Positions 2,519 through 30,620 of a stretch of DNA of 33,820 nucleotides are shown in pieces. The position numbers and the translations under genes were made by a program. The first letter of the stretch is position 1. Every line of letters starts with the position of its first letter. Below the pieces are notes generated by a model. It made no database searches and was not told the origin of the DNA. It saw nothing but the letters and a program-made list of their open reading frames with translations. The stretch is from positions 1-33,820 of the forward strand of contig JARGPE010000009.1 in NCBI GenBank assembly GCA_029212835.1. Reading direction: 5' to 3'. This DNA is from Alphaproteobacteria bacterium. GTDB lineage: Bacteria > Pseudomonadota > Alphaproteobacteria > UBA8366 > Aestuariispiraceae.

Positions 2519-2551
2519 TTCTTGGGGCACATTTTATCAGAAAAAATTACT

Positions 2552-5500: not shown

Positions 5501-5647
5501 GGTGCAAAGCGTCTGGGACGAATGGCCAGCGACATTCAGGATGCGCTGGACGACGGTGATATGGAAATGGCCAGTATTTTGGTAGAAGTTCTTCCTGATT
5601 GTCTGGAAGAGTTTAATGCGATCCTACCGAAGGTCCTTGCTGTGTAA
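2552..5647 (+). CDS. Hybrid sensor histidine kinase: Cache-like extracytoplasmic sensor, HisKA, HATPase_c, receiver (REC), C-terminal HPt
   Basis: N-terminal TM and TRPWYTAALQQKGPVWTQAYMFASSGQIGVTYAQPIYD (Cache motif); FLATMSHEIRTPMNGV (HisKA); GGTGLGLSICQRL (HATPase); LLLSDFNMPVMDGFELSR (REC); ARHAAHALKGAALSVGAKRL (HPt). Confidence 0.93.
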   Translation: MKLNRSLSSRPILLSLGALILIAGGLISYFAYQYEKESLFKQASKELHVSSNAFVRALNAVFEPALVLSRTIIDSGIWREDPADNAETFFGIATGPVRQFEHLNGAFIGFPDGRFFHIQNLTLTGSRNMQRITIHRRVIDEPDTLPQGHWEKYNSLSRQWSIDSTKSEPYDPRTRPWYTAALQQKGPVWTQAYMFASSGQIGVTYAQPIYDDARALWAVLGIDLSLNTLSRTMLQTADDLAGIGNLVFATDLGNKMLGHPDFVKQAEEMKRDTDAFFARYSVPSSFESTVQRAVQDPGEIVPLTMDKRSFIAIKAVLDPAKAMPLNIFIARDLDVILAEAEAGMQRNVILLFSAILIFGIVGLYAVKLRVEVIARERAEAELIDAKEMAEAATKAKSTFLATMSHEIRTPMNGVVAMAELLTLTRLDTDQRRMAGIINNSAMALLTIINDILDFSKIEAGKIEIEEISFSLAEVVDGCAELLAPRADERGLTFAVEIDPSLVDRRFGDPTRIRQVLLNLGGNAVKFTEAGSVEIVVTALADRPDGSMGDWLRFAVHDTGIGLTPEQQGRLFQPFVQADTSTSRKFGGTGLGLSICQRLCTLMGGDIFVTSTVGKGSIFTFDLPLAAQGDFALRYPDSLSDARVRLYGLEDRIVGIIRRYLKATDVTDVEVVTGEIGPGETADLLIMNAVLPIPAFKGAISVVGTRSEIANVSAADRTKLSSILTYPVSREPLWHAVAVAMGLEAAEVLVEREDLAFTPPDIDRAREQMALILVAEDNQTNQIVIRQMLNKMGFACELAENGKVALDMLQRPGSGYGLLLSDFNMPVMDGFELSRAVRDQEMGTESRLPILALTADVLAGSEQACRDAGMDGFFTKPIDSRKLGAALVKFLPQALPLRTIAAKAEPVAEDISETTGQDWDLDIFDVKQMVEAFGGLDADAKTLIRDAAQGWYVRVTEVETAIADGDQSAARHAAHALKGAALSVGAKRLGRMASDIQDALDDGDMEMASILVEVLPDCLEEFNAILPKVLAV

Positions 5648-5663
5648 GAGGGGGAGATGAAAC

Positions 5664-6065
5664 ATGGCAGATACAGTGATCAATTATGAATCTAAACGGA
5701 TATTGGTGATTGAGGATGAAGTCCATATTCGACAGATCATCTGCCGCTTGTTGCGTCAGATCGGTTATCGCTTGATCGATGAGGCGTCGGATGGGTCTGA
5801 AGGCTTTAAGACGCTTCTACGGGTGCAGCCAGATGTCATCTTGTGTGATGTGCATATGGAACCGGTCAATGGCATTGCGTTTCTGCGTAAGTTGCGGGGC
5901 CTTAGCCAACCGAAATATGCGTCCCAACCTGTGATTTTTCTGACCGGTGATCAGGAAAGCACAACAGTTATCGCAGCCAAGGATTTGCGGGTCGATGGGT
6001 ATTTGGTGAAACCTGTTTCACTGAATGCCTTAAAGGATCGGATTGATGCGGTGTTGGTGCGATAG
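5664..6065 (+). CDS. Single-domain response regulator (CheY-like receiver)
   Basis: RILVIEDEVHIRQIICRLLRQIGY...DVILCDVHMEPVNGIAFLRKLR...VIFLTGD...VDGYLVKPV. Confidence 0.9.
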   Translation: MADTVINYESKRILVIEDEVHIRQIICRLLRQIGYRLIDEASDGSEGFKTLLRVQPDVILCDVHMEPVNGIAFLRKLRGLSQPKYASQPVIFLTGDQESTTVIAAKDLRVDGYLVKPVSLNALKDRIDAVLVR

Positions 6066-6216
6066 ATTTCGGGGTAGCCTTCCGTGTATGAGATTGTAAC
6101 AGCTACACTAAATCATTTTCACGCCTAGTATTAGCGCGTATGATATACGAAATAGCGTATGTTTCTGGATAAAGACTAATCAGCACAACAAGAGGTGCAA
6201 AGATTAGCTGGGTCAA

Positions 6217-6747
6217 ATGGGGGTAATCACATTGGCTACAAACTATGATTTCCGGAATCTTCGGGTTCTGGTGGTTGATGACAGCCATTTTATGACACGG
6301 GTCGTTTCAAACATCCTCGAAGCATTAGGGGTTGGATCCGTCTATAGTGCCCATTCTGGGCATGACGGCTTTGACGCCGCCTGCCGATATCGCCCGGATG
6401 TGGTGATTTCTGATTGGGATATGGATGGTGGTGAGGGGCCGGAACTGGTCAATTTGCTGCGCCATCATCCAACCAGTCCGGACCCGTTCGTCAGTGTGAT
6501 CATGTTGACTGGTTTTGCTGAAATGCGCCGAGTCCTTGCCGCACGGGATTTTGGTATTACAGAGTTTTTGTCCAAGCCGGTCTCTGCCAAGGCATTGCAT
6601 GCGCGTCTGGTCTCTTTGGTAGAACGTCCCCGTCCTTTTGTGCGGGTTGCTCGGGACTATTTTGGCCCGGATAGACGGCGCGCCGCGAATGAGGATTATT
6701 ATGGTGCAGACCGGCGGGGGACTGAAGACTTTGCGGATATTGGGTAA
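6217..6747 (+). CDS. Response regulator receiver protein with C-terminal DY(F/Y)G(P/A)DRR tandem motif
   Basis: RVLVVDDSHFMTRVVSNILEALG...DVVISDWDMDGGEGPELV...VIMLTG...ITEFLSKPVS; C-terminal DYFGPDRRRAANEDYYGADRR. Confidence 0.87.
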   Translation: MGVITLATNYDFRNLRVLVVDDSHFMTRVVSNILEALGVGSVYSAHSGHDGFDAACRYRPDVVISDWDMDGGEGPELVNLLRHHPTSPDPFVSVIMLTGFAEMRRVLAARDFGITEFLSKPVSAKALHARLVSLVERPRPFVRVARDYFGPDRRRAANEDYYGADRRGTEDFADIG

Positions 6748-6758
6748 AAGTGGATGTT

Positions 6759-7265
6759 ATGACCAATAATAAGGATAACATGAAATCAACCCCGGCCGGT
6801 CGAAAGGCGGAATTTTACACACCCCCTTCATTGGCCAAGAAAGTGCCGACTAAGGGGGGGCCGTCCTTAGAGGATGCATTGCGTCGTGCAGATAAGGCCG
6901 TCGCCGCCGTGGTTCAAGAGTTCGAAGGTATTCTCGGTGAGGAATTGGATGAATTGGACGTCCTTTTATCCAGCTTCAGGGCCTCACAGGATGAAGAAAC
7001 CCTGAACAAATTGTTTCGCCGGGTTCATAACTTGCGGGGACAAGGAACAACACTTGGATTCCCTCTGATTACCCGGATTGGCACCTCATTTTGTGCCTAT
7101 CTGATTGAACGCAATCCAAATCGCCCGGTAAACCCTTCGGTGATTGAACAGCATATTCAGGCCTTGCGTATTGTGTTGAAGGAACGCAAGGCACAGGAAG
7201 GCGACGCAATTTCCGTGTCAGTCGCTGCGGCTTTGGAAGATGTTGTGCGGCGCGAATTGTCCTGA
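6759..7265 (+). CDS. HPt (histidine phosphotransfer) domain protein
   Basis: FRRVHNLRGQGTTLGFPLITRIG resembles the HPt motif HxxKGxGxxxG with K to R; helical protein directly downstream of the response regulators. ORF track opens at a GTG (6750); ATG at 6759. Confidence 0.65.
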   Translation: MTNNKDNMKSTPAGRKAEFYTPPSLAKKVPTKGGPSLEDALRRADKAVAAVVQEFEGILGEELDELDVLLSSFRASQDEETLNKLFRRVHNLRGQGTTLGFPLITRIGTSFCAYLIERNPNRPVNPSVIEQHIQALRIVLKERKAQEGDAISVSVAAALEDVVRRELS

Positions 7266-7280
7266 CACGTCATTAATCAA

Positions 7281-7329
7281 TTTTTCAGAATGATATGAAA
7301 AACTGCATGAACGGTAACATTTCACCGTT
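7281..7329. promoter_or_regulatory. Two adjacent inverted repeats in the leader of NAD-GDH
   Basis: TTTTTCA (7281-7287)/TGAAAAA (7296-7302) and AACGGT (7310-7315)/ACCGTT (7324-7329). Confidence 0.4.
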
Positions 7330-7501
7330 ATGACCCTGTTTGGGTATCTGCAGCCTGGATTGTGTGATTCGAGACGGGATTTGCGTCTTAGCGCTTTCGG
7401 TCTAAGCTATTGAGAATGAAAACACGTCACTCGCAGGGGTATTGTTAAACTGCCCCGACGACGGCGGACAGTGCGAAACAAAACGATGCGGGGGATATGT
7501 T

Positions 7502-10500
7502 ATGGCTGATCGAGTTGATATTCGTAAGCAGGATTTGTTGGAGAAAGTTCACGCTCTGATTGATGATCGCATCAAGAAGGACCAACGAGAGCCGGCTCAT
7601 ATCTTTACCACGCATTACTACCGAAATGTCCCCCCCGAAGATATCTGCAACCGAGAGCCTGAAGATCTGTATGGCGCGGCAATTTCGATGTGGACATTTG
7701 GTCAGGATCGCCCGTCCGGAAAACCCAGTATTCGCGCCTATAATCCCCGGTTTGAGAAACACGGCTGGCATGCGACCCATACGGTGATTGAAATCGTCAA
7801 CGACGATATGCCGTTTCTGGTCGACAGTGTGACAATGGAACTGACACGCCAGATGTATACGGTTCACTTGGTGGTTCATCCGGTCTTTGGGGTGGATCGG
7901 GATGCCAAGGGCAAGGCTCAGAACTTTCCATCTAAATCCGCCAAGACGGATGATTTCCCCCGCGAAAGTTTCATGCATATCGAAGTGGACGAACAATCGA
8001 GCCCCGATGTGCTGAAGGCGATTGAGGATGGTATCCGGTCGGTGCTGAGTGATGTCCGAGCGACAGTTGTCGATTGGCGCGACATGCGGGCCCAGGCGTT
8101 GAAGATAGAGAAGGAGTTGAGCAAGACGCCGCCCAAAGGCATGGACAAGGCGCTGGTGTCCGAGACCTCATCCTTTTTGAAATGGCTGTATGACGATCAT
8201 TTCACGTTCATGGGTTATCGCGAGATTGACTATCATGGCACCGGAAAAAAGGCGCGGCTGGAAATTGTTCCAGACAGCGGCATGGGAATTCTCAGTGACC
8301 CGGAACGGCAAGTATTCGATGGGCTGCGTAATCTTGGTGCCTTGCCGGTGGAGATTCAGGCGCAAATGCGCGCACCGGACTTGGTCCGCATTACCAAAGC
8401 CAACAATCGATCAACTGTGCACCGCCGTGTTCATATGGATACAATTGCGGTTAAGAAGTTTGATGCGGAGGGGACTGTTGTGGGCGAACATCTGTTCGTC
8501 GGATTGTTGACCTCTGTTGCCTATAATCAATCACCTCGCGAAATTCCGCTGCTCCGTCAGAAGGTCAGCGCGGTCATTGAGGCGTCGGGCTTTGAACCGG
8601 GTGGGCATTCCTCCAAGGCACTCACTCATGTCTTGGAAAGCTATCCCCGCGATGAGTTGTTCCAGATTTCGGTCGATTTGTTAAGTGAGATTGCCCGGGG
8701 CATTCTGTTCTTGCAAGAACGTCAGCGGATTGCTGTGTTCCTGCGCCCTGATCCCTTTCAACGCTATATTTCTGCCCTGATCTATGTGCCCCGAGATCGG
8801 TTTTCCTCTTCTTTGCGCAAGCTGATCGGGCGTCAATTGGCGAAGGAATTTAAAGGCCATATTGCTGCCCATTACACCTTTATGACTGATGAGCCGCTGA
8901 CTCGCGTGCAGTTTATCGTCAAGACTCAGCCAGGCAATGTGCCGGAGATCGACCGCAAAGAGCTGGAAGAACATCTGGCCGATGTGACCCGAACCTGGGA
9001 AGACCGGCTGCAACAGGCCTTGATTGAAAATCTAGGCGAAGAGCGTGGCATGGGTCTGTTCCATCGCTACCGCGAGGCGTTTCCGCATGCTTATGCGAAT
9101 GTCTTTAATGTTCAGACCGCTTGTTATGATATTGAACAGGTGGAACAGGCGCTCTTCAGCAATGGTCCTCGGGTAAACCTGTATCATCCGATAGAAGCTG
9201 GTGCGAACCAGCTTCGATTTAAGATATACAGTCCCCATAAGTCGCTGGTTCTATCGGCTGTCATGCCCATGCTGGAAAATATGGGCGTCATGGTTATGGA
9301 GGAATTGCTGTATGAAATTCATCCAGCAGGATCCAAGAACGTTCCAGGCCGACTGACCGGTGGGCAAAGCATTGATGCAGAAGACAGCGAGGCTAAAGAA
9401 AGCCTGTATCTGCATGACTTTGCGCTGGAAAGTAAGGATGGGCGAGACATTGATTTCGCTAGCGTCCGCGAAGTTTTTCACGACAGCTTCCTGCAGGTTT
9501 TGTCTGGTGATGTTGAAAATGACGGGTTCAATCGCCTGGTTCTGTCGGCCGGACTGGCATGGCGCGACGTGGTCATCAGCCGTGCCTATTCAAAATATCT
9601 GCGTCAGGCCGGAATCCCGTTCTCACAGGATTATATGGCCGAAACCTTGGCAAAGAACCCAGGCATCGTTCGCAATCTGGCTAAGTTGTTTACGACCCGC
9701 TTTGACCCAAATTTCTCGGGCGATCGCATAGCGACCTGCCAGGCATATGTCGCGGAGATTGAAACGGCGCTGGAGGATGTCAGCAATCTGGATGAGGATC
9801 GGATTATTCGCCGGTTCCTGAATATGGTCCAGGTGACGCTGCGTACCAATTTCTATCAGTCCAGCGAGGATGGACGTGCCAAATCCTATGTGTCCCTGAA
9901 ATTCGCCAGTCGCGATATTCTGGAAATCCCCCAGCCAGCGCCACTGCGAGAAATCTTTGTTTACAGTCCGCGGTTTGAGGCGGTGCATCTGCGCTTTGGT
10001 TTGGTTGCGCGCGGTGGTCTGCGCTGGTCTGATCGACGGGAAGATTTCCGGACTGAGGTTCTGGGCCTGGTAAAGGCACAGCAGGTGAAGAATGCTGTGA
10101 TCGTGCCCGTAGGGTCCAAGGGTGGCTTCGTTCTGAAAAAGGCGCCGCCCCCTTCAGATCGGCAAGCTTTTCTTCAGGAAGGTATCGCCTGCTATCAGAC
10201 CTTTATTTCGGGTATGCTCGATATTACTGACAATCTGGTGACTGGTGAAATCGTGCCCCCGGAGCAAGTCGTTCGACATGACCAGGATGATCCCTATCTT
10301 GTCGTTGCGGCCGATAAGGGAACGGCCACCTTCTCTGATTTCGCCAATGCAATTTCCAACAAGTATAATTTCTGGTTGGGCGATGCCTTCGCCTCTGGTG
10401 GATCCGCAGGCTATGACCATAAAAAGATGGGCATCACGGCCAAGGGGGGCTGGGAAGCGGTCAAACGCCATTTCCGCGAATTTGGTCACGATACCCAAAC

Positions 10501-12394
10501 CGAAGACTTCACCGTCGTTGGGATTGGCGATATGGGGGGCGATGTCTTTGGGAACGGGATGATTCTCAGTGAGCATATCTGCCTGAAAGTTGCTTTCAAT
10601 CATCTGCACATCTTCATTGATCCCAATCCTGATCCGAAGAAAACCTTTGTTGAGAGAAAACGTTTGTTCGACGCGGTGAAGGGGTGGGCGGACTATGACA
10701 CCTCACTGATTTCCAAAGGCGGTGGCGTCTTCGACCGATCCGCGAAATCGATCAAGCTGACGCCGGAAATGAAGGCCATGCTGGAGGTCACGGAAGACAG
10801 TTTGCCGCCAGCGCAATTGATTAAGGCAGCTCTGCGCATGCCGGTCGATCTGCTGTGGTTCGGCGGTATCGGCACCTATGTGAAGCATAGCGATGAAGGC
10901 AATGCGGATGTGGGTGACCGTGCCAATGACTCTTTGCGTATTGATGCCGATGAAGTGCGGGCGAAAGTCATTGGGGAAGGCGCAAATCTTGGCGTTACCC
11001 ATCGATCCCGCATTCAGTTCGCGCAATTGGGCGGGCGGATCAATACCGATGCTATTGATAACTCTGCCGGTGTCGATTGTTCGGACCACGAGGTGAATAT
11101 TAAAATTCTGCTGGGCGATGTCGTGCAACGTGGAGATATGACGGAAAAGCAGCGCAACAGCCTGTTGGAAACGATGACTGATGAAGTTTCCGCCCTTGTG
11201 TTGCGGGACAATTATCAACAGACACAATCTCTATCGGTGGAATTGTCTCAGGCAGAGACCTTGTTGGATCGGCATCAACGCTTGATTCGGGCAATGGAGC
11301 GCGCAGGCGATTTGAACCGACGCTTGGAATTCCTGCCGGATGATGAGGAGATCGCTGAGCGGATGCAGAAGAAGGAAGGTCTGTGTCGTCCGGAACTGGC
11401 CGTGATCCTTGCCTATGCAAAGAACATCACTTATCGCGAGTTGCTGGATTCTGATCTGCCCGACGACCCGATGTTGGAGGCAGATCTGTTCCGGTATTTT
11501 CCGACAGCACTGCAACAGAAGTATCCAGATGCGATCCAGAACCATCGATTGCGGCGAGAGATCATTGCGACCGCTGTTACCAACTCGATGATCAACCGCA
11601 CCGGGCCAGCCTTTGTCAGCGAAATGCATCAGCGGACCGGTCGCTTCGAATCTGAAATTGCCAGGGCCTATACGGTTGTTCGGGAAGTTTTCAGTCTGCG
11701 GGGGATCTGGGCGGCGATTGAGGCCCTGGACAACAAGACCGATGCCAAGATTCAAATTCGGATGCTTCGGGAAACGGAACGCACGATTGAACGGATGACC
11801 GAATGGTTCCTGCGTAACAGTGATCACCCGATCGATATGAAATCGAGTATTGAAACCTATCGACCGGGCGTTACCACCTTGAAGGAAAACCTGGATACGA
11901 TCCTGTCCAAATTCGCCAAGGACGATGTGGCTGCGCGGTTGGCGCGGTTCCAGAAAACCGGAGTTCCGGATGATCTGGCCCTGTCTGTGGCACAGTTGAA
12001 GGTGCTTTCTTCCTCCTGCGATGTGGTCCGCCTTGCCGGTCAGGCAGATGTGCCGGTCGTGGATGTCGGGCGGGTTTATTCGACTGTCGGGTCGCGATTT
12101 GGGTTGGATTGGTTGCGATCCTCTGCGAACCGAATTCCGTCAGATAACCAATGGCACCGGCTGGCGCTGGGGGCGATCATTGATGATCTGTGGGGCCTTC
12201 AGTCGGAAATCACGTCGCGTGTTCTCGTCCGCGAAGGGGCTGGCGTCGATGCGGTCGATAAATGGTGTGGCTTGCGATCCGACACCGTTGAGCGGCTGGA
12301 TGCACTGCTGGCGGAGTTGCGCAGCTTGCCGCAGCTTGATCTGGCAATGCTGGCTGTGCTGAACAGAGAACTAAGAAACCTAACAGCGTCCTGA
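7502..12394 (+). CDS. NAD-specific glutamate dehydrogenase, large (about 180 kDa) class
   Basis: About 1630 aa single ORF; GLRWSDRREDFRTEVLGLVKAQQVKNAVIVPVGSKGGFVLKK and GIGDMGGDVFGNGMILSE, VIGEGANLGVTHRSRIQFAQLGGRINTDAIDNSAGVDCSDHEVNIKILL are hallmark motifs of the family. Confidence 0.96.
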   Translation: MADRVDIRKQDLLEKVHALIDDRIKKDQREPAHIFTTHYYRNVPPEDICNREPEDLYGAAISMWTFGQDRPSGKPSIRAYNPRFEKHGWHATHTVIEIVNDDMPFLVDSVTMELTRQMYTVHLVVHPVFGVDRDAKGKAQNFPSKSAKTDDFPRESFMHIEVDEQSSPDVLKAIEDGIRSVLSDVRATVVDWRDMRAQALKIEKELSKTPPKGMDKALVSETSSFLKWLYDDHFTFMGYREIDYHGTGKKARLEIVPDSGMGILSDPERQVFDGLRNLGALPVEIQAQMRAPDLVRITKANNRSTVHRRVHMDTIAVKKFDAEGTVVGEHLFVGLLTSVAYNQSPREIPLLRQKVSAVIEASGFEPGGHSSKALTHVLESYPRDELFQISVDLLSEIARGILFLQERQRIAVFLRPDPFQRYISALIYVPRDRFSSSLRKLIGRQLAKEFKGHIAAHYTFMTDEPLTRVQFIVKTQPGNVPEIDRKELEEHLADVTRTWEDRLQQALIENLGEERGMGLFHRYREAFPHAYANVFNVQTACYDIEQVEQALFSNGPRVNLYHPIEAGANQLRFKIYSPHKSLVLSAVMPMLENMGVMVMEELLYEIHPAGSKNVPGRLTGGQSIDAEDSEAKESLYLHDFALESKDGRDIDFASVREVFHDSFLQVLSGDVENDGFNRLVLSAGLAWRDVVISRAYSKYLRQAGIPFSQDYMAETLAKNPGIVRNLAKLFTTRFDPNFSGDRIATCQAYVAEIETALEDVSNLDEDRIIRRFLNMVQVTLRTNFYQSSEDGRAKSYVSLKFASRDILEIPQPAPLREIFVYSPRFEAVHLRFGLVARGGLRWSDRREDFRTEVLGLVKAQQVKNAVIVPVGSKGGFVLKKAPPPSDRQAFLQEGIACYQTFISGMLDITDNLVTGEIVPPEQVVRHDQDDPYLVVAADKGTATFSDFANAISNKYNFWLGDAFASGGSAGYDHKKMGITAKGGWEAVKRHFREFGHDTQTEDFTVVGIGDMGGDVFGNGMILSEHICLKVAFNHLHIFIDPNPDPKKTFVERKRLFDAVKGWADYDTSLISKGGGVFDRSAKSIKLTPEMKAMLEVTEDSLPPAQLIKAALRMPVDLLWFGGIGTYVKHSDEGNADVGDRANDSLRIDADEVRAKVIGEGANLGVTHRSRIQFAQLGGRINTDAIDNSAGVDCSDHEVNIKILLGDVVQRGDMTEKQRNSLLETMTDEVSALVLRDNYQQTQSLSVELSQAETLLDRHQRLIRAMERAGDLNRRLEFLPDDEEIAERMQKKEGLCRPELAVILAYAKNITYRELLDSDLPDDPMLEADLFRYFPTALQQKYPDAIQNHRLRREIIATAVTNSMINRTGPAFVSEMHQRTGRFESEIARAYTVVREVFSLRGIWAAIEALDNKTDAKIQIRMLRETERTIERMTEWFLRNSDHPIDMKSSIETYRPGVTTLKENLDTILSKFAKDDVAARLARFQKTGVPDDLALSVAQLKVLSSSCDVVRLAGQADVPVVDVGRVYSTVGSRFGLDWLRSSANRIPSDNQWHRLALGAIIDDLWGLQSEITSRVLVREGAGVDAVDKWCGLRSDTVERLDALLAELRSLPQLDLAMLAVLNRELRNLTAS

Positions 12395-21082: not shown

Positions 21083-23065
21083 ATGAAAAAATTAGGGCAG
21101 TGGTATTCAATCAAAACATTGATCAATCGAGAAGTGTTTACCCTCAGATTGATTTTGATTTGGGGTGTTGGAATACTTTTACTTCACTTTTCGCCATTTA
21201 ATTTGTCAGCACGACTGTATGAAGAAACTCAAAATCTTGTTCTCGCGATTTTCTCTCCAAGCTTTCCACCAGATGGCCGATCGGCGCTCGCTGAGCCCGC
21301 TGTTGTTGTTGAGATAACCAATGATAGTTTGCGCGCCTTCCGAATAGAACAGTGCAAAGAAATCGATAGAAGGCTGAAAGACCTCAATAGAGCATCGTCC
21401 TTTGATTTAAAGGCATGTGAAATTGAGTGCATTGTAAAAAAGGATGGTGGGAATACGACGGGCTGCGACGTTGCTGATTATCTCACCGAAGAAGAGCGAC
21501 GTGTTTGGCAGAACGGAAGCATCCTGCTGTATCCTGTTGAGGATCCAACTGATGTTTGGCCAATATCCTATGGCATCCATGATTATCTGATCTCAAGGCT
21601 GATCGAATTGGAGCCTGCGGCAATTATGGTCGACATCACCTTTGGCCCGCCCCGCCGGTGGGACAATGAGTTGAAGACCTTTGGAAAACGGATTGAAGCG
21701 GCACAAAAGCAACTGGTGGAATTTGGTGAAAAACCGGTTCCAGTTTACTTCGCCATTGATGAAAATTCCCTTTATCAGGGAATGACATCTCTGGATACAT
21801 TGAAACGAAACGCACAGAATTCTGAAGATTACGTGTTCGATGTACCAACGACCTGGAAAGAGGATGACAATTGGTATCCGATCAAAATTACAGAGTTTCC
21901 CACTGTTTATTCGCCCGCTGCTAAAATTTTCTTAGATCTTTGTTTGGAACAGAGGGGGAATGATGGAAATCTTCCCCGCGCATGCGGATCTATGCGGAAA
22001 CTTGAGGTTTGTGAAACAAATACGCCAGAAGGATTGGGCAATGATGGGATATCCGGTGACCCCAGCTTGGATTGCCTGCCCCTAGGGAAGACAGAAATCG
22101 ACACTTCGGAGGATTTTATTTTTACCATATCTTCCCCGAAAATGGATTTGGAAAAGTTCCATGACCGTATGCTGGTTCGCTGGCCCTACAATATTTCTGA
22201 ATTGCAGCCAAATTTTAAGAACCAGGATTTATGCGCGCAAAAAGTACCGCCCTCTTCGCTTCGTTTTTTTGGAATTGACTGGGGTCCGGTGATCCCTGAT
22301 CTGGGTGTTATCTGGCAATTGGTCAGCCAATCAACGGGCATAATGTGGCAAGGCGGGCCAATTCAACCGTGTCGTCCGATGCCAACGGTTGGGGCGGCGC
22401 GACTGTTGCCGGAATATGATAAAGGCCTGGGTGAATTATACAGTTTGGTCAATAATCGTGTTGTTTTCCTGGGAGCGTACATTCGAGAGTATCCAGATAC
22501 GATCGATACAACGCTTTATGATAAGGTGCCCGGAGTTGCGTTTCACGCGACTGCCTATAGAAATCTGACCGCTTATGGCACGGATTATTTCCGCAGTAAC
22601 CCGTTTTTAAAGAGCGTGATTGAGGCCGTGTTGTGGTTCTTTATAGCGGTACACTCGGCGGTTAAGATTGGACTTCACGAGGCCCATTTAAATGGTGCCA
22701 TGAGCGTGCGCTCTTACGAGCGGTCTCGGATATGGCTTAATCGTGCCATTATGGGGATCAATTTTCTGGGCTTTTGCATTGCCTGTCTTTTGTGGTTGAT
22801 GCACACCGCACCGGTCGATTTTCTCTCACTTGCCGCTTTAAGCGGAGGTCTCGCCTTGGTCGAGACGATTGTTTTAGCCAAGCCCATGCTGTCGATCGGT
22901 GGAATTATGATCAGCTTGGTCTCCTACACAATGATGGCAACGCGGTGTTGCGCGGTTTTGGTGAAGCAGGTCGATAGGCGCGTTATCTCTATTCTTGCAT
23001 GGGGATGGCGCTATCTTGTCGCGAATGTTCATCGCGCAATCAGTCATTTTTTTAAAAAGAAATAA
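21083..23065 (+). CDS. CHASE2 domain membrane protein lacking a recognisable output domain
   Basis: N-terminal TM, AEPAVVVEITNDSLRAF, WPISYGIHDYLISRLIELEPAAIMVDITFGPP, NNRVVFLGAYIREYPDTIDTTLYDKVPGVAFHATAYRNLT, then several TM helices and a short tail ending HRAISHFFKKK. Confidence 0.83.
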   Translation: MKKLGQWYSIKTLINREVFTLRLILIWGVGILLLHFSPFNLSARLYEETQNLVLAIFSPSFPPDGRSALAEPAVVVEITNDSLRAFRIEQCKEIDRRLKDLNRASSFDLKACEIECIVKKDGGNTTGCDVADYLTEEERRVWQNGSILLYPVEDPTDVWPISYGIHDYLISRLIELEPAAIMVDITFGPPRRWDNELKTFGKRIEAAQKQLVEFGEKPVPVYFAIDENSLYQGMTSLDTLKRNAQNSEDYVFDVPTTWKEDDNWYPIKITEFPTVYSPAAKIFLDLCLEQRGNDGNLPRACGSMRKLEVCETNTPEGLGNDGISGDPSLDCLPLGKTEIDTSEDFIFTISSPKMDLEKFHDRMLVRWPYNISELQPNFKNQDLCAQKVPPSSLRFFGIDWGPVIPDLGVIWQLVSQSTGIMWQGGPIQPCRPMPTVGAARLLPEYDKGLGELYSLVNNRVVFLGAYIREYPDTIDTTLYDKVPGVAFHATAYRNLTAYGTDYFRSNPFLKSVIEAVLWFFIAVHSAVKIGLHEAHLNGAMSVRSYERSRIWLNRAIMGINFLGFCIACLLWLMHTAPVDFLSLAALSGGLALVETIVLAKPMLSIGGIMISLVSYTMMATRCCAVLVKQVDRRVISILAWGWRYLVANVHRAISHFFKKK

Positions 23066-23250
23066 TATTAGACCCAATTCCTGCCTATCGTTCTCAAAGG
23101 GATAGGAGCAAAAGCCGTCTCTGCTGAGTGTCAGTCTTACAGGCCATAAGCAGTTGGATCTCACAAAATTCGTAATATTAAAATGGTTGTATCCAAAAAC
23201 TATACACCCTAGGGTTTCTATTGTGATTGATCGGATCTGGGAGAAGGGCA

Positions 23251-23697
23251 ATGAAGGGGACTCTGACTTTCTCAACCATTTTGCGAAAGAATTCTGCGGT
23301 TAAGCGGCGATTTTTTGCGGGGATTGGCTGTGGGGTTTTGTTGGCTTTTGGGGGCGTTCCTTTCCATGAGGCTTTGGTTCTTCCCAGTGTTGCTTATGCT
23401 CAGCAACAAGTGAATGTAATTGAGATAAAAGGTTTTCGGCGGGATTCCTTCCGTGTTGCTGACAAGGATGCTCAACGTCCCAGCATTTCAAAGACGAAGG
23501 CAGACTTTGTTCTGCCACAGAGCTTCGCGGAAGAAGATGAAAAGAATGGCCTTTATCCATTGGTGGACCCGCAGGGAGAGCTTTTCTATCTGCATCCCAA
23601 ATATGCCATTCTGAATCGAAAGACCTGCGATCTAGGGCCAGCTGAAGTGGCTCAACTCCGCAATTATGCAACATCTGGCGCGCGCCCACCCTGTTGA
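23251..23697 (+). CDS. Small exported protein of unknown function
   Basis: MKGTLTFSTILRKNSAVKRRFFAGIGCGVLLAFGG...LPSVAYAQQQ: signal peptide with AYA-QQ cleavage site; two Cys in the mature part. Confidence 0.65.
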   Translation: MKGTLTFSTILRKNSAVKRRFFAGIGCGVLLAFGGVPFHEALVLPSVAYAQQQVNVIEIKGFRRDSFRVADKDAQRPSISKTKADFVLPQSFAEEDEKNGLYPLVDPQGELFYLHPKYAILNRKTCDLGPAEVAQLRNYATSGARPPC

Positions 23698-23794
23698 AAG
23701 AGTGAATTCTAAGGGGATAGCTGCCGTGACGTGAATCCATTGGTCGGTGTGGAATATATACCGTCATTGGACAATAAAATGAGGGGATGGTGTG

Positions 23795-25480
23795 ATGGGC
23801 AATTTACGATCGGTTTTGATAGCCTTAGGGCTGGTGGCGATACTGACGTCCTGTGTGACGGATGATGGCTCAGAAGGTGGCGGTTTGGACTCTGCCATGC
23901 GCAGTGTTTCTGACGGTGTCGCTGGGCTGTTTGGCGATACGGCAGATCCAAGCATTAATGCCTTGGTTTTAGCCCAGTCCTATATTCAGGATGTCGACGT
24001 TGACGAGGTGGAGAATGTTGAGGCCTTAACAGATCCAAACCATGTGTGCGACCCGACAAAGAAGCGCCCAGAGGCTGATTTTAAGTTGGGTATCGAAGAT
24101 ATTCGTGAAACGGGCTATGGGACTTGGCCGATTAAGAACGCAGAGAAATATTTAAATCAAATATTGGATCGTATTATTGCCTGCGCGCCTTTCGATCCTG
24201 TCCCCGCAACCATTGTGATAGCCCCTCAGCCGCAACAAAATGCCCATGTGCATCGGGATGGTTTGATCGAAGTTTCGGTTGAGAGCTTTACCCAGAACCC
24301 ACAAAACGAAAATGCTTTGGCCTTTATGATTGCGCATGAATATTCCCACATTCTTCTGCGCCATTATGAACGGGGATTGGCGACCGAACGGCGGAACAAA
24401 ATTTTCCGTACCAGTATGGAGGTCGCCTTCTTGGCAGATGACATTCTGGTCAGCAATGGGGCGGAAAAGAAGGCCGCTGATAAAATGAAATCACCCATGT
24501 TGGTGAACCGTACTATGGACGTGTTGTTTGAACATGCCTGGGGGCGGCAGGACGAACATGAGGCGGATATGCTGGGGTTGCATTTAGCTGCTCTTGCTGG
24601 CTTTAACGCTTCAATTGGGGCTGGGCAATTCTTCAAGGACATGGAACGCCAACCAACAATGGAAGATCGTGTGTTGGCGTTGGCGGAGGACAAGGAACGT
24701 ATTTTCGGTGATGCTGCCAAGGGCGGACTAACTGGCGGCAAAAAGGGCATTCTCGACGTTTTTAAACAGGCCGGGCAAGATGCGGCACAGAGTTTGGCCG
24801 TCAGCCTACAAGACAGCCATCCTTCTGTCGAAGCACGGCAAGAAATTCTCTTCAAATACGATCTCGCCCACGGCATTGAGGATCTTGAATATGATCGAAT
24901 TGATATGGGCGTTGGTAAGCAATTCCCTTTGGCAGACTATAAGAAAGTCTATTCTGACGCCGAACTGCAACTTTCTTTGAAGGCATTTGCCGCCGCGAAG
25001 GAAGTGCATGATGCGCTAGGTTCTGTCGCGTCCCTGGATGAGTTACCTGATGACATCTCGGTCAGCGCCTTGGAATCAAAAGCAAGGCTGGGTGTGTCGG
25101 GGCGGCCTTGGTTGGAAAACAATGCCTTTGGCCGTGTCGCGTTTTCATCTTTGCGGGAAATGCAGGGGAAAAACGATCTGGCAATTGTTGGATTTGAAAA
25201 ATACGCGATGAAAGACCCAGAGGTTCCTCTGCGGGTTTATGAAAATCTGTTTGATCGTCAGCTTCAGGCGAAGAAGGTCAAAGAGGCAATAAAAACCTTT
25301 TCAAAAGCGGAAGCGACTTTTGGTTCAGACAATGACATATTGTACCCAATGCGCATAAAACTGGCCCATGCAAAAGGCGAAGATCCCACTTCGCTGTTGG
25401 CTGGATGTCGTCTCAGTGCAGACCCTCGCATCGCCCGGATTTGCCGCTTCTGGCAGCAAGGTGGTGTGCCGCAATCTTAA
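23795..25480 (+). CDS. M48 family metalloprotease, predicted lipoprotein with C-terminal helical/TPR-like region
   Basis: Lipobox LTSC; zinc motif AFMIAHEYSHILLRHYERG (HExxH) and EHEADMLGLHLAALAGF (ExxxD third ligand motif). Confidence 0.9.
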   Translation: MGNLRSVLIALGLVAILTSCVTDDGSEGGGLDSAMRSVSDGVAGLFGDTADPSINALVLAQSYIQDVDVDEVENVEALTDPNHVCDPTKKRPEADFKLGIEDIRETGYGTWPIKNAEKYLNQILDRIIACAPFDPVPATIVIAPQPQQNAHVHRDGLIEVSVESFTQNPQNENALAFMIAHEYSHILLRHYERGLATERRNKIFRTSMEVAFLADDILVSNGAEKKAADKMKSPMLVNRTMDVLFEHAWGRQDEHEADMLGLHLAALAGFNASIGAGQFFKDMERQPTMEDRVLALAEDKERIFGDAAKGGLTGGKKGILDVFKQAGQDAAQSLAVSLQDSHPSVEARQEILFKYDLAHGIEDLEYDRIDMGVGKQFPLADYKKVYSDAELQLSLKAFAAAKEVHDALGSVASLDELPDDISVSALESKARLGVSGRPWLENNAFGRVAFSSLREMQGKNDLAIVGFEKYAMKDPEVPLRVYENLFDRQLQAKKVKEAIKTFSKAEATFGSDNDILYPMRIKLAHAKGEDPTSLLAGCRLSADPRIARICRFWQQGGVPQS

Positions 25481-25486
25481 GGGTGG

Positions 25487-26797
25487 TCATGCATTATCTA
25501 TGGTCGCTCTGTCTTGCAGGGCTAGTGGGGCTGGGCCGCCGGTGATCCAGTCCAGCAATTCAACCGTGTGCGTGACGGGCAGGGCGGTGCCACTGGCGAT
25601 TTGTTGGATACAGCCGATATTGCCGGCGGCGACAAGGTCCGGCTTGGTCTTTTCGATGTTGCGAACCTTGCGGGCCTTCAGCGTGTTGGCCATTTCTGGC
25701 TGCAGCAGGTTATAGGTCCCGGCAGAACCGCAACAAAGATGACCTTCTGCCGGGCTGACGACCTTAAAGCCCGCCTGTGTCAGCAGGTCCTTGGGCAGGG
25801 CGGTGATCTTCTGGCCATGCTGCATGGAACAGGCGGAGTGATAGGCGACCGTCAAATCGGCCTGTCGTGTGGCAGGCATCAATTTGATCGTGGTCAGATA
25901 CTCCGTCACATCCTTTGTCAGGGCGGAAACCCGGGCTGCATCAGCCTGCATTGCGGGGTCACTGCGGAACATGAAGCCGTAATCTTTCACCGTCGTGCCA
26001 CAGCCTGATGCATTGATGACGATGGCATCCAGACCCTCGCCATCCATTTCTCGCGCCCAGGCCTTTATATTCGCGGCGGCTTGCTGGTGGCTGGTTTCGG
26101 TATCGCCCATATGATGCACCAATGCGCCACAGCAGCCAGCGCCTTGGGCAACCACGACCTCGATCCCGTGTCGGGTCAGCAGACGGATCGTGGCCTCATT
26201 GATCTGGGGCTGCAAAACCTGCTGCGCACAGCCAGTCAGCATCGCCACACGGCCCTTGCGCGGCCCTTCTGCTGGGATCACTTGCGGCACATCCCAAGGT
26301 GAGGCCTTGGGGATAGAGGCCGGTGCCATGCGGAACATCGCACCGATCGGTCCCGGCAATCCTTTCAACAGAGGCTTGCCCAGCCAGGCCCCGATCAGGG
26401 CCAGCCGAAACACCCGGGGGCGCGGCAGCACGAAACTCAGGATTCGCCGCAGTCCTTTATCCAAGAATGGTCGATTGTAGGTTACATGAATCTTCGCCCG
26501 GGCGATATCGACCAGATGCATATAATGCACCCCGGACGGGCAGGTCGTCATGCAACTTAGACAGCTCAGGCAGCGATCGATATGTTTCACCAGAGTGGAG
26601 GAGGCGGGCTTGTCCCCCTCCAGCATATCCTTGATCTGATAAATCCGCCCACGCGGGCTGTCCAATTCATCGCCCAGCGTAATATAGGTCGGACAGGTCG
26701 CCGTGCAGAACCCGCAATGCACACATTTCCGCAGGATATCATTCGCCGCCGCAACATCGGGATCTTCAAGCTGAGCAATGGAAAAGTTAGTTTGCAT
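25487..26797 (-). CDS. glcF: Glycolate oxidase iron-sulfur subunit
   Basis: RKCVHCGFCTATCPTYITLGDELDSPRGRIYQIKDMLEG; CLSCLSCMTTCPSGVHYMHLVD; CCG domains (GCCGALVHHMG, CCGSAGTYNLLQPEM). Confidence 0.96.
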   Translation of the reverse strand: MQTNFSIAQLEDPDVAAANDILRKCVHCGFCTATCPTYITLGDELDSPRGRIYQIKDMLEGDKPASSTLVKHIDRCLSCLSCMTTCPSGVHYMHLVDIARAKIHVTYNRPFLDKGLRRILSFVLPRPRVFRLALIGAWLGKPLLKGLPGPIGAMFRMAPASIPKASPWDVPQVIPAEGPRKGRVAMLTGCAQQVLQPQINEATIRLLTRHGIEVVVAQGAGCCGALVHHMGDTETSHQQAAANIKAWAREMDGEGLDAIVINASGCGTTVKDYGFMFRSDPAMQADAARVSALTKDVTEYLTTIKLMPATRQADLTVAYHSACSMQHGQKITALPKDLLTQAGFKVVSPAEGHLCCGSAGTYNLLQPEMANTLKARKVRNIEKTKPDLVAAGNIGCIQQIASGTALPVTHTVELLDWITGGPAPLALQDRATIDNA

Positions 26798-26806
26798 AGT
26801 GAGACC

Positions 26807-28030
26807 TTACAGCCCTTCTGTCATGCGACCGGGGTTTAGGACGCGGTTGGGGTCGAAGCTGTCTTTCAGGCGTTGGGACAGGGCGGCCAGCGGGCCGGGT
26901 TGGGGCTGGAAGACCGGGATGGCGTTGCGCAGGGAGGCGGGGCCGCGGATCAGGGTGGCGTGGCCGCCTCCGGCCTGAGCAATGGCATCGCGGATCGGCT
27001 CATGGGCGCCGTGTTTGGGGGATTGGGTGGCCAGCCAGATCAAACCACCGGCGGCGTCCAGATAGGCTACCCCCTCTTTCAAATGGGACAGGGCCGACAG
27101 GATGCCGGGCGCGGCGGTTGGGGCAACCGACAGTTTCCAGACCACCCGGTCATCATCATCGCAGAAGGGGGTGACATCGCGCACGGCCTTCCAGAATGTC
27201 TTGGAATTGTGGCTATGCAGTTCCTCTGTCTCCCCAAACGGGGCCAACAGGGCACGCAGCTTTTGACAGCGATAGTCGACCGAGGGGCCAAAACCTTCGA
27301 CCCTGAGGGCCGCGACATCACTTTGCACCTGCTGAACATAGTCGATCTGTGAGCGCGCGGCGATGCTGGCGGGCAGCCAGGCGGCACCAGATACTTCGAA
27401 GGGCCCATTAAGGCCTGCGGCCAGGGCTTTTACCCCTTGGGCGGCATCAACGTTGCGGACCAGGATGGTGCGGGCCTTTTGTCCAACCGGCAGCACCTTG
27501 ACCGTCAGGCGGGTCATCGCGGCCAGCGTGCCATAGGAGCCACACAGCATTTTGCTCAAGTCATAACCGGTGACATTCTTCATCACGCGCCCGCCCGATT
27601 TGACCGCCATGCCTCGGCCAGAAACGGCATCAAAGCCCAGAAAATGATCCCGTGCCGCGCCATCTTTAATGCGACGCGGGCCCGCGAGATTACAGGCAAT
27701 GACACCTCCCAGAGTGCCCGACGACTCCACTTTCAACAGGGCAGACAGGTCGGGCGGCTCAAAGGCCAGTTGTTGGTGGTTTTCGGCCAATAGAGTTTCG
27801 ATCTCCGCCAGGGGGGTGGCAGGCCCTGCGCCCAGCACCAGTTCCTCAGGCTCGTAGAGATTTACACCGGAAAAGGCAGAAAGATCCAACGTATGGGCCG
27901 TCTGGACGGGGCGACCCAATCCGCGCTTGGTGCCGCCGCCAATGACTTCCAGTGGCAACAATTCTGAATTCGCCCAGGAAATCGCGTCGATTAACTGCGC
28001 TTCCGTTTCGGGGCGGAAGGTTTCGGTCAT
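26807..28030 (-). CDS. glcE: Glycolate oxidase FAD-binding subunit
   Basis: EPEELVLGAGPATPLAEIETLLAENHQQLAFEPPD; LGGVIACNLAGPRRIKDGAARDHFLG; SFDPNRVLNPGRM. Confidence 0.95.
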   Translation of the reverse strand: MTETFRPETEAQLIDAISWANSELLPLEVIGGGTKRGLGRPVQTAHTLDLSAFSGVNLYEPEELVLGAGPATPLAEIETLLAENHQQLAFEPPDLSALLKVESSGTLGGVIACNLAGPRRIKDGAARDHFLGFDAVSGRGMAVKSGGRVMKNVTGYDLSKMLCGSYGTLAAMTRLTVKVLPVGQKARTILVRNVDAAQGVKALAAGLNGPFEVSGAAWLPASIAARSQIDYVQQVQSDVAALRVEGFGPSVDYRCQKLRALLAPFGETEELHSHNSKTFWKAVRDVTPFCDDDDRVVWKLSVAPTAAPGILSALSHLKEGVAYLDAAGGLIWLATQSPKHGAHEPIRDAIAQAGGGHATLIRGPASLRNAIPVFQPQPGPLAALSQRLKDSFDPNRVLNPGRMTEGL

Positions 28031-28110
28031 GGGCGGCGTCCTGAGGCTGCGGTGGGGAATGTGATGGAGGTGACACGACCGTCACTGGTGTTGAAAGAAT
28101 ATCCCATAGA

Positions 28111-29598
28111 TCAGAACCGAGGGATATCGGGGAAGGGTAACTGACCCTTATGGATATGCATCCGGCCCAGTTCCGCACAGCGATGGAGCTGTGGGAAGAC
28201 CTTGCCGGGATTCAGCAAGCCGTCTGGATCAAAGGCGCATTTGACTCGCATTTGTTGCTTCAGGTCATCTTCGGTAAACATGGTCGGCATCAGGTCGCGC
28301 TTTTCAACGCCAACGCCATGCTCGCCCGTCAGCACGCCTCCCACTTCGACACATAGCTTCAGGATGTCGGAGCCAAAGTCCTCTGCCTTCTCTAATTCGC
28401 CGGGATTATTGGCGTCATACATGATCAGGGGGTGCAGATTGCCATCGCCCGCATGAAAGACATTGGCAACGCCCAAGCCATAATGCTTGGACATTTTGGT
28501 CATCTCGCTCAACACATGGGGCAATTGGTTGCGGGGGATCGTGCCATCCATGCAGTAATAGTCTGGGGACAGTCGGCCTACTGCGGGAAAGGCCGCCTTG
28601 CGTCCAGCCCAGAACATGGCGCGTTCTTCCTCACTTTGAGAAATGCGCAGGCTGGTCGCGCCTAATCCTTCGGCGATGATGCGGACTTCTTCGATCAGAT
28701 GGTCTACTTCCGCTTCCGGCCCATCCAATTCTACGATCAGCAGCGCCTCGCAATCCGCTGGATAGCCAGCATGGATAAAGTCTTCTGCCGCGGTGATGGC
28801 GGGCCGGTCCATCATTTCCATGCCGCCGGGGATGATGCCGCTGGCGATCACCTGAGCCACACAATTGCCGCCCGCCTCGCTGGATGGGAAACCGATCAGC
28901 AGTGCCCGCTGGGTCTCTGGCTTAGGCAACAGACGCACGGTGACTTCTGTGACCACCCCCAGCAACCCTTCAGACCCGATCATCAGACCCAGCAGGTCAT
29001 AGCCTTCCGCATCCAGATGCTTGCCACCTATGCGCAGGATTTCACCATCAATGGTGACCATTTCCAGGCCCAGGACATTGTTCGTGGTCAGGCCATATTT
29101 CAGTGAATGCACGCCACCGGAATTTTCCGCGACATTGCCACCAATTGTGCAGGCAATCTGGCTGGATGGGTCAGGGGCATAATAGAAGCCATCTTCTTCG
29201 ACAGCCTTGGTAATCGCCAGATTGGTGACGCCGGGCTGAACCCGGGCGCAGCGATTGTCATAGTCGACCTCCAATACCTTGTTGAACTTTCCCATACCCA
29301 ACAATATGCCATCTTCCAGAGGCAGCGCCCCGCCAGACAGGCTGGTCCCCGCACCGCGCGGCACCACCTTAATACCTTGTTCCTTGCAATATTTCAGGAC
29401 ATTTGCCACCTGATCCACGGTCTGTGGCAGCACAACGATTAACGGCGGGGTGCGATAGGCCGTTAGCCCGTCACTTTCATAGGCGCGCCGTTCATCTTCA
29501 TCCACGATGACGCCTTCACCAGGCACCAGGGCACGCAGGTCATCGGCAATGGTTAGCCGACGCGCAATAACCGCCTTGTCCGGATCTGGCATTTTCAT
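28111..29598 (-). CDS. glcD: Glycolate oxidase subunit GlcD (FAD-linked oxidase)
   Basis: VVLPQTVDQVANVLKYCKEQGIKVVPRGAGTSLSGGALP; GGNVAENSGGVHSLKYGLTTNNVLG; HAGDGNLHPLIMYD; GGVLTGEHGVGVEKRDLM. Start set at ATG 29598 (MKMPDPDKAV). Confidence 0.96.
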   Translation of the reverse strand: MKMPDPDKAVIARRLTIADDLRALVPGEGVIVDEDERRAYESDGLTAYRTPPLIVVLPQTVDQVANVLKYCKEQGIKVVPRGAGTSLSGGALPLEDGILLGMGKFNKVLEVDYDNRCARVQPGVTNLAITKAVEEDGFYYAPDPSSQIACTIGGNVAENSGGVHSLKYGLTTNNVLGLEMVTIDGEILRIGGKHLDAEGYDLLGLMIGSEGLLGVVTEVTVRLLPKPETQRALLIGFPSSEAGGNCVAQVIASGIIPGGMEMMDRPAITAAEDFIHAGYPADCEALLIVELDGPEAEVDHLIEEVRIIAEGLGATSLRISQSEEERAMFWAGRKAAFPAVGRLSPDYYCMDGTIPRNQLPHVLSEMTKMSKHYGLGVANVFHAGDGNLHPLIMYDANNPGELEKAEDFGSDILKLCVEVGGVLTGEHGVGVEKRDLMPTMFTEDDLKQQMRVKCAFDPDGLLNPGKVFPQLHRCAELGRMHIHKGQLPFPDIPRF

Positions 29599-29630
29599 CG
29601 ATTTGGCCTCCCTTGTTCTTCTATCTTTAT

Positions 29631-29654
29631 AATTGGTATTACCAATTTGGTAAA
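29631..29654. promoter_or_regulatory. GntR/FadR-subfamily-type operator upstream of glcD (AATTGGTATTACCAATTTGGTAA)
   Basis: AATTGGTA-T-TACCAATT (29631-29647) perfect palindrome around one central base; overlapping TACCAA-T-TTGGTA gives a third half-site. Confidence 0.65.
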
Positions 29655-29684
29655 CCTGCCTTGAAGAGTGGCTTTCACGGGTGG

Positions 29685-30620
29685 CTAACCATCTCTCAAC
29701 AAACCGCGATAGGCATTTTGCAAGGTCAGGCGCACACCCTGCCAAGCATTATTGCGCCAAACAGTATCGGAGGGATAGGACGGCGGTGCCTCATTCGGGC
29801 TGCGCGTCGACCCACCCAACCGGCGCGACAGCGAGTATGTGCCAATTTCCAGAACCACATTTGTCACTTGTGCCTTGGGCAGCAGCCCGCCCAATCCACC
29901 GCCACAAGGCGCGGCACCAGCACCTATGGCATCACTGGCGGCGGTAACGTTAATCGTAAACCAGCTTTCCGCCCGTGTCCGACCAGCAGAATTGGGAGGA
30001 TTACAGGGCACTATTTCCGGCATGCCAAAGGGCCCTGGTCCGGTGCGGGAATCAATGACACAGACTTGCTGTGCGCCCTCGAACCGCTCTGCTGCAATCG
30101 CACGCAAAACAGCACCATCCCAAGCGGGGGGAGTCATGGACGCCAGCGTTTGCCCGGCCATCCGGGTCCAATCCACACCTTGCTCCGCCTGAAAGGCAGA
30201 AAACCGCTCCTCTGCGGCGGCCAGAACGCTGTCAGACCAATCCGGGGCGGGCTTATTGGCGGAAATGACATCATCCGGTGCAAAATAAGGCCAGATCGGG
30301 CCAGCTGGATTGGCGGCATGGATCAGCACCAGGGCTACTTCTTTAGGCAGATCCTGTAATCCTCCTTCGGTCAGGACTCCTAAAATCGCACCGCAGCCCA
30401 GCAATCCCGCTGAACCTGCCGCTGCGCTGCATAGAACTGCGACACGGGTGGCATCAGGAGAGCCCATGCGGGCAACGTCGCAGGATAGGCCTGTTGACCC
30501 TGCATTATCTCCGCGTGCAGCATGAGATGTTATGCGCAGCCCGATCCGATCGCAGGCGGTTAGGAATCTGTCTCTCGCGCGGTTAACATCATCACTGAAA
30601 CAGGCGACCGTGTCTGTCAT
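29685..30620 (-). CDS. DUF2817 (M14-like) family protein with degenerate metal-binding motif
   Basis: FSDDVNRARDRFLTACDRIG...LSCDVARMGSPDATRVAVLCSAAAGSAGLLGCGAI...VALVLIHAANPAGPIWP...NVVLEIGTYSLSRRL; overall pattern fits DUF2817 but with the HGxEG motif replaced. Confidence 0.7.
   Translation of the reverse strand: MTDTVACFSDDVNRARDRFLTACDRIGLRITSHAARGDNAGSTGLSCDVARMGSPDATRVAVLCSAAAGSAGLLGCGAILGVLTEGGLQDLPKEVALVLIHAANPAGPIWPYFAPDDVISANKPAPDWSDSVLAAAEERFSAFQAEQGVDWTRMAGQTLASMTPPAWDGAVLRAIAAERFEGAQQVCVIDSRTGPGPFGMPEIVPCNPPNSAGRTRAESWFTINVTAASDAIGAGAAPCGGGLGGLLPKAQVTNVVLEIGTYSLSRRLGGSTRSPNEAPPSYPSDTVWRNNAWQGVRLTLQNAYRGLLRDG

Follow-up and report, generated by a model that had tools for sequence, protein, structure and literature searches.

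What does a CHASE2 protein do when no cytoplasmic output domain follows it and its neighbouring genes encode two exported proteins? CHASE2 is a widespread sensor domain of bacteria, and to our knowledge little has been established about what it binds or which exported proteins partner it. The question is raised by a stretch of 33,820 nucleotides from an Aestuariispiraceae genome (assembly GCA_029212835.1, contig JARGPE010000009.1, positions 1 to 33,820), hereafter the window. A CHASE2 gene, a gene for a small exported protein and a gene for an M48 metalloprotease follow one another there on the + strand (21083-25480). A previous reading made from the DNA letters (the sequence-only reading) had singled out these three consecutive same-strand genes, which are all present as described, and had suggested an output outside the cytoplasm. 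Many unrelated bacteria carry the trio too, with its genes arranged in the same way. It therefore constitutes a real and apparently undescribed cell-envelope system.

Searching at the order level, the triad was recovered in two congeners, with identities of about 41% (CHASE2), 42-50% (small protein) and 64% (M48), and divergent triads were found in other genera and families. A profile of the M48 protein run over one genome per species gave 30 loci. The strong ones mostly adjoin a CHASE2 gene and a small exported open reading frame (ORF), and come from Marivibrio, Thalassospira, Kiloniellaceae, Minwuiaceae, Oleispirillum, Acidiphilium, Parvibaculum, Alteromonas, Vibrio, Stutzerimonas, Methylotuvimicrobium and one Myxococcota metagenome-assembled genome (MAG). 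The CHASE2 profile matched 13 of 386 Alphaproteobacteria at 14 loci, 13 of which adjoin an M48 gene, the last one being broken. The small-protein profile matched 12 of 338; all 12 adjoin an M48 gene and 11 also a CHASE2 gene, the other lying at a contig end. Since these three sets overlap and some of their members helped to build the profiles, the cleanest test is a later phylum-wide search, in which all six previously unused genomes carried the three genes in the same order with intact zinc motifs. Two more triads were found on plasmid records of Photobacterium and of the betaproteobacterium Caballeronia, the latter annotated as a CHASE2 protein, a hypothetical protein and an M48 protease. 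The M48-profile matches at L061, L063-L065, L068 and L070 were excluded as ordinary M48 genes without a CHASE2 neighbour. L099 (7316-11155) was excluded as broken: its CHASE2-A and M48 parts are encoded on different strands, and a transposase-like gene separates them.

The order CHASE2, small protein, M48 on one strand was found in 39/47 loci, the genes often overlapping by 1-4 bp, and the module is represented in Alpha-, Beta- and Gammaproteobacteria as well as in the Myxococcota MAG. The co-occurrence in order that the sequence-only reading had in mind thus extends far beyond close relatives. Genomes that were checked carry 3 to 7 M48 genes each, from which we estimate a chance adjacency of about 0.5% per locus. 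In the sampled genomes and at the thresholds set, prevalence was 13/386 in Alphaproteobacteria, 4-5/321 in Gammaproteobacteria (high score) and 1/189 in the phylum Myxococcota. Mirror-tree correlations (r 0.34-0.40, 0/2000 permutations) were not taken to prove that the proteins interact, since common descent by itself would produce them. These results show that the triad is inherited together in a fixed order across unrelated bacteria, and they support a real module whose products all face the envelope.

The window CHASE2 protein matches Pfam CHASE2 (PF05226) with an E-value of 6.6e-12 and 46 bits, for a curated cut-off of 26.3. Pfam, NCBIfam and PADLOC gave no further domain, and no cyclase, kinase or GGDEF output. 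Positions of transmembrane helices (TMs) and signal peptides were taken from simple hydropathy and AlphaFold2 (AF2) models. By hydropathy, TM1 spans residues 18-36 and is followed by a long ectodomain, TMs from residue 509 and a 47-residue tail. The AF2 model has a mean predicted local distance difference test score (pLDDT) of 77; a fold search of the PDB with this model found no credible match (best E 0.19, TM-score about 0.1), and thus no solved relative of the ectodomain was found. All 36 relatives match Pfam CHASE2 at E<=0.01. No Pfam output domain was detected in 35 of them, the remaining one has an N-terminal TIR domain, and none has a recognised cyclase or kinase; the protein of L034 is extended at its N-terminus, where a cyclase-like match stays below the threshold.

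When 63 CHASE2 regions were placed in a tree, 38 proteins of this kind, which we call CHASE2-A, formed one side of a branch with a support of 100 in the Shimodaira-Hasegawa-like approximate likelihood ratio test; relations within the clade are unsure, since the tree was built quickly and its branches are long. Cys384 is kept in 38/38 and Cys430 in 37/38 of them, and all 25 cyclase- and kinase-type proteins are gapped at both columns. Their median C-terminal tail is 28 residues. The term orphan, used by the sequence-only reading, thus holds for the lack of an output but not for a lone copy, the protein belonging to a whole clade. Because a cytoplasmic output is the defining feature of known CHASE2 receptors, we did not file the window protein among them; on its input side it may nevertheless act like one. 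The extracytoplasmic output proposed by that reading fits the predicted absence of a cytoplasmic domain in 35/36 relatives. The TIR-bearing protein belongs to L039 (4892-9492), where a TIR-CHASE2 fusion is followed by an SH3-like small gene and by an M48 gene whose product also has SH3_3 and SHOCT domains. Among 201 further genomes no second TIR-CHASE2 was found, only TIR proteins without CHASE2.

The small protein most likely starts at the ATG at 23251, preceded by GGGAGAAGGGCA, with a TTG at 23227 as alternative; in relatives, gene starts were called mechanically. It carries a signal peptide and has no Pfam match, and its family (36 members, mean column identity of 20%) is likewise without a consistent one. 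Cys126 and Cys148 are each invariant in 36/36 aligned sequences. The AF2 model is a seven-stranded barrel with pLDDT up to 97, confident only for residues about 53-127. Its best sensible Foldseek matches are bacterial SH3 domains, with weak E-values of 0.16-0.3. The comparison of the family with one single SH3 protein sequence gave no match, and the Pfam models SH3_3 and SH3_4 matched 0/36 members, but the profile-profile comparison with the SH3_3 partners of CHASE2-cyclase loci gave a probability of 93.9 and an E-value of 1.5e-7. The model and these profiles point to a new family with a probable SH3-like barrel. The size of about 150 residues and the secretion, both stated previously, stand; the lack of any recognisable family is corrected to a probable SH3-like assignment.

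The third protein matches Pfam M48 (PF01435, E 1.1e-12) and has the intact HExxH (181-185), E254xxAD and plug (HPx4R, here HPSVEAR, 342-348) motifs. Among relatives, His181 is kept in 38/39, Glu182, His185 and the zinc ligand Glu254 in 39/39, His342 of the plug in 35/39 and Arg348 in 39/39. Cys538 and Cys550 are kept in all 38 members with letters at those columns. The LTSC lipobox, which the sequence-only reading had reported together with the HExxH and EAD motifs, is indeed present, and about half of the relatives have a lipobox. SH3 domains are fused to the M48 protein in 4/39 relatives. The family profile matches the BepA structures 6ait and 6sar and TPR chains. Pfam detected no TPR in the window protein (TPR_19 is matched by 7/39 relatives), which scores 37.8 bits with the NCBIfam BepA equivalog NF052400, whose cut-off is 570. 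The window's genome has other, stronger M48 genes.

As controls, we took 17 gammaproteobacterial CHASE2 loci outside the CHASE2-A clade. In nine of them an M48 gene lies nearby, most also having an SH3-type small gene, and in the four of these nine tested with Pfam (L163, L168, L171 and L177) the CHASE2 protein is an adenylate cyclase. A tenth, L176, ends after an SH3-like gene. The remaining seven have no M48 neighbour, and the three tested are histidine kinases. The controls are therefore not clean negatives, and the partnership of SH3 and M48 proteins extends to cyclase-type CHASE2. In spirochaetes, SH3-like, M48 and CHASE2-cyclase genes also stand in a row. Given this looser arrangement in Gammaproteobacteria and spirochaetes, it appears that CHASE2 recurrently has these two kinds of exported protein as partners, whatever its output. 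The SH3-like small protein, the TIR-fused variant and these cyclase relatives go beyond what the sequence-only reading had noted.

In L037, L038, L040 and L126, a small-protein and M48 pair is convergent with a CHASE2 gene, which is a Pfam adenylate cyclase in the first three and was assigned by hidden Markov model only in L126. In L191 (785-4581), a cyclase-type CHASE2 gene stands tail-to-tail with a complete CHASE2-A triad, of which it is possibly a partner. The window's genome encodes two further CHASE2 proteins, which by length and clade are of the cyclase type; neither has an M48 neighbour. Two of the gammaproteobacterial clusters end with a gene for a FadL/PorV-like outer-membrane protein (at 2215-3573 in L168 and at 843-2084 in L177).

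The features of the triad are collected in Table 1. Its genes are separated by 185 bp (CHASE2/small protein) and 97 bp (small protein/M48). No candidate promoter or terminator stood above chance in the triad region, and none was found on the + strand of either gap. An Rfam search of the window returned no RNA. Downstream, on the opposite strand (25487-29745), lie glycolate oxidase-like genes, judged by sequence to encode an iron-sulfur protein and two FAD-binding subunits; the iron-sulfur gene and one FAD-subunit gene also adjoin the triad in both congeners. Further upstream (2522-12394) are genes for a hybrid histidine kinase with a cache sensor and Hpt domain, a lone receiver, a lone Hpt protein and then a 1650-residue NAD-glutamate dehydrogenase.

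Table 1. Features of the CHASE2, small-protein and M48 genes, in window coordinates
Feature	Position	Strand	Basis
Output-less CHASE2 protein, 660 aa	21083..23065	+	Pfam CHASE2; one TM near the N-terminus, then a large ectodomain, 3-4 TMs towards the C-terminus and a short basic tail
CHASE2-A-specific segment of the ectodomain, Cys384 to Cys430	22232..22372	+	Cysteine columns in CHASE2 alignment
Small exported protein, 148 aa	23251..23697	+	Signal peptide, predicted SH3-like barrel, two-cysteine tail; 36-member family, AF2
Predicted SH3-like beta-barrel, residues 53-127 of small protein	23407..23631	+	AF2 strands, Foldseek, profile match
Invariant Cys126 and Cys148, small protein	23626..23694	+	Family alignment
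M48 metalloprotease lipoprotein (GTG 23792 or ATG 23795)	23792..25480	+	Pfam M48; protease domain and possibly TPR-like C-terminal half
Lipobox LTSC, M48 protein	23843..23854	+	Sequence
HExxH zinc site, H181-E-x-x-H185, M48 protein	24335..24349	+	Alignment
Third zinc-ligand motif E254xxAD, M48 protein	24554..24568	+	Alignment
HPx4R active-site plug motif, H342-P-S-V-E-A-R348, M48 protein	24818..24838	+	Alignment; the motif acts as a plug in BepA (PMC7950410)
C-terminal cysteine pair Cys538 and Cys550, M48 protein	25406..25444	+	Alignment

How could the three proteins work together? The constant parts of the system lie outside the cytoplasm, the cytoplasmic part is variable or absent, and the zinc site and plug are kept. 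The simplest reading is that the membrane and SH3-like proteins control the protease. The SH3 fusions in M48 relatives and the SH3_3 and M48 genes beside CHASE2-cyclases link the SH3 part with the M48 part. We tentatively favour, while judging it somewhat short of probable, a three-protein envelope module in which the inner-membrane CHASE2 protein would serve as anchor and regulator of a BepA-like protease that is autoinhibited by its plug, the SH3-like protein acting as adaptor. The CHASE2 ectodomain would perceive an envelope cue, the SH3-like protein would link the parts or present the substrate, and both together would release the protease, the output being regulated proteolysis outside the cytoplasm. 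In the CHASE2-cyclase relatives, like exported partners would instead feed a cytoplasmic cyclic AMP (cAMP) output. It is more doubtful that this amounts to a novel mode of sensing, in which an output-less receptor controls an exported protease through the adaptor, with signal and response both outside the cytoplasm and the thiol/disulfide chemistry of the three cysteine pairs taking part in the switch. Several observations weigh against the favoured explanation. Both window gaps exceed those of most relatives. Four loci have no detectable small-protein homologue, a similar-sized ORF sitting between the genes in each. The M48 protein of L101 (4288-6081) has Leu for the first zinc His of HExxH and is possibly inactive. 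The TIR fusion of L039 may indicate inward signalling by some members. Finally, the direction of control is not given by co-conservation, and a protease relay acting on the neighbours or a constitutive quality-control complex fit nearly as well.

In such a relay, the M48 protein would cleave or mature one of its neighbours, either the small protein or the ectodomain of CHASE2, and the membrane part of CHASE2 would signal in trans, for instance by pairing with CHASE2-adenylate cyclases encoded elsewhere. The two cyclase-type proteins of the window's genome, the cyclase-type gene adjoining the triad in L191 and the pairs beside CHASE2-cyclases in L037, L038, L040 and L126 are in its favour; the distance of the CHASE2-A clade from cyclase and kinase types, together with its own cysteine segment, means that the pairing is not obvious, and we consider the relay unlikely. 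CHASE2 could also be a membrane scaffold, not a sensor, in a constitutive complex for envelope assembly or quality control that assists or degrades certain outer-membrane proteins, as BepA does with LptD and BamA. The possible M48-TPR architecture and the plug, as in BepA, and the FadL/PorV-like protein that gammaproteobacterial clusters can include, agree with this rather unlikely alternative. However, the patchiness of the triad, which is present in about 1-4% of the genomes of each group, ill suits housekeeping, and other CHASE2 proteins are known or predicted receptors. The same patchiness and the TIR domain of L039 would agree with a system of the conflict or immunity type, where a cytoplasmic effector responds to a signal from the envelope and the output-less form has lost this effector or uses a separate one. 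This is very improbable, as the TIR is confined to 1/36 relatives, with no second case in the 201 genomes, PADLOC gave no match and no conserved effector gene adjoins. Still less credible, and already disfavoured, is a decaying receptor that has lost its cyclase and whose neighbours are hitch-hikers. Cyclase-bearing CHASE2 proteins with SH3 and M48 neighbours do exist, but the proteins without output group in a single clade that spans several classes and has invariant cysteines of its own, and all three reading frames and the catalytic residues are kept.

A CHASE2 clade nearly always found with the same two exported proteins, and almost never with an output, makes these partners a direct test of what CHASE2 senses or controls. 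Besides a new family of small proteins, the triad offers a candidate regulator of M48 proteases that, like BepA, are autoinhibited by a plug.

The sequence-only reading knew of no named system of this composition. Consistently, PADLOC and NCBIfam scans of the triad proteins returned no system name, and a literature search for CHASE2 with M48, metalloprotease, TIR, SH3 or peptidase, subscription papers and preprints excluded, yielded no description of such an arrangement. In the CHASE2 systems known so far, the output is a kinase or a cyclase. The Sinorhizobium meliloti receptor cyclases CyaD1, CyaD2 and CyaK, with the outer-membrane protein NsrA, share the CHASE2 ectodomain between TM1 and C-terminal TMs, and there too an exported partner matters for signal input (PMC13001267). 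The window protein differs in having no cyclase, in belonging to a separate clade and in being accompanied by an M48 protease and an SH3-like protein instead of a beta-barrel. The BiofilmReg operon, made of a response regulator, a LysM-FecR protein, a CHASE2 histidine kinase and DUF4136, likewise combines a CHASE2 protein with an exported partner (PMC5192318). Its output is a kinase, its partner a FecR protein, it has no M48 or SH3 gene and kinase-type CHASE2 falls in another clade; none of its response regulator, LysM-FecR or CHASE2 histidine kinase genes adjoins the triad. The gammaproteobacterial and spirochaetal clusters, for which we found no published description, have the same three kinds of parts as the triad. 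They differ by keeping the cyclase, by an M48 protein of about 280-300 residues without TPR and by a small protein that is a plain Pfam SH3_3. Finally, Escherichia coli BepA (PDB 6ait, 6sar) resembles the window protease in its M48 domain, its HExxH, its Glu ligand and its HPx4R plug, and possibly in a TPR-like C-terminal half; in BepA, a plug residue sits at the zinc and has to be displaced before the enzyme can act (PMC7950410). Unlike BepA, the window protein falls far below the BepA model cut-off, is a lipoprotein and is linked to CHASE2.

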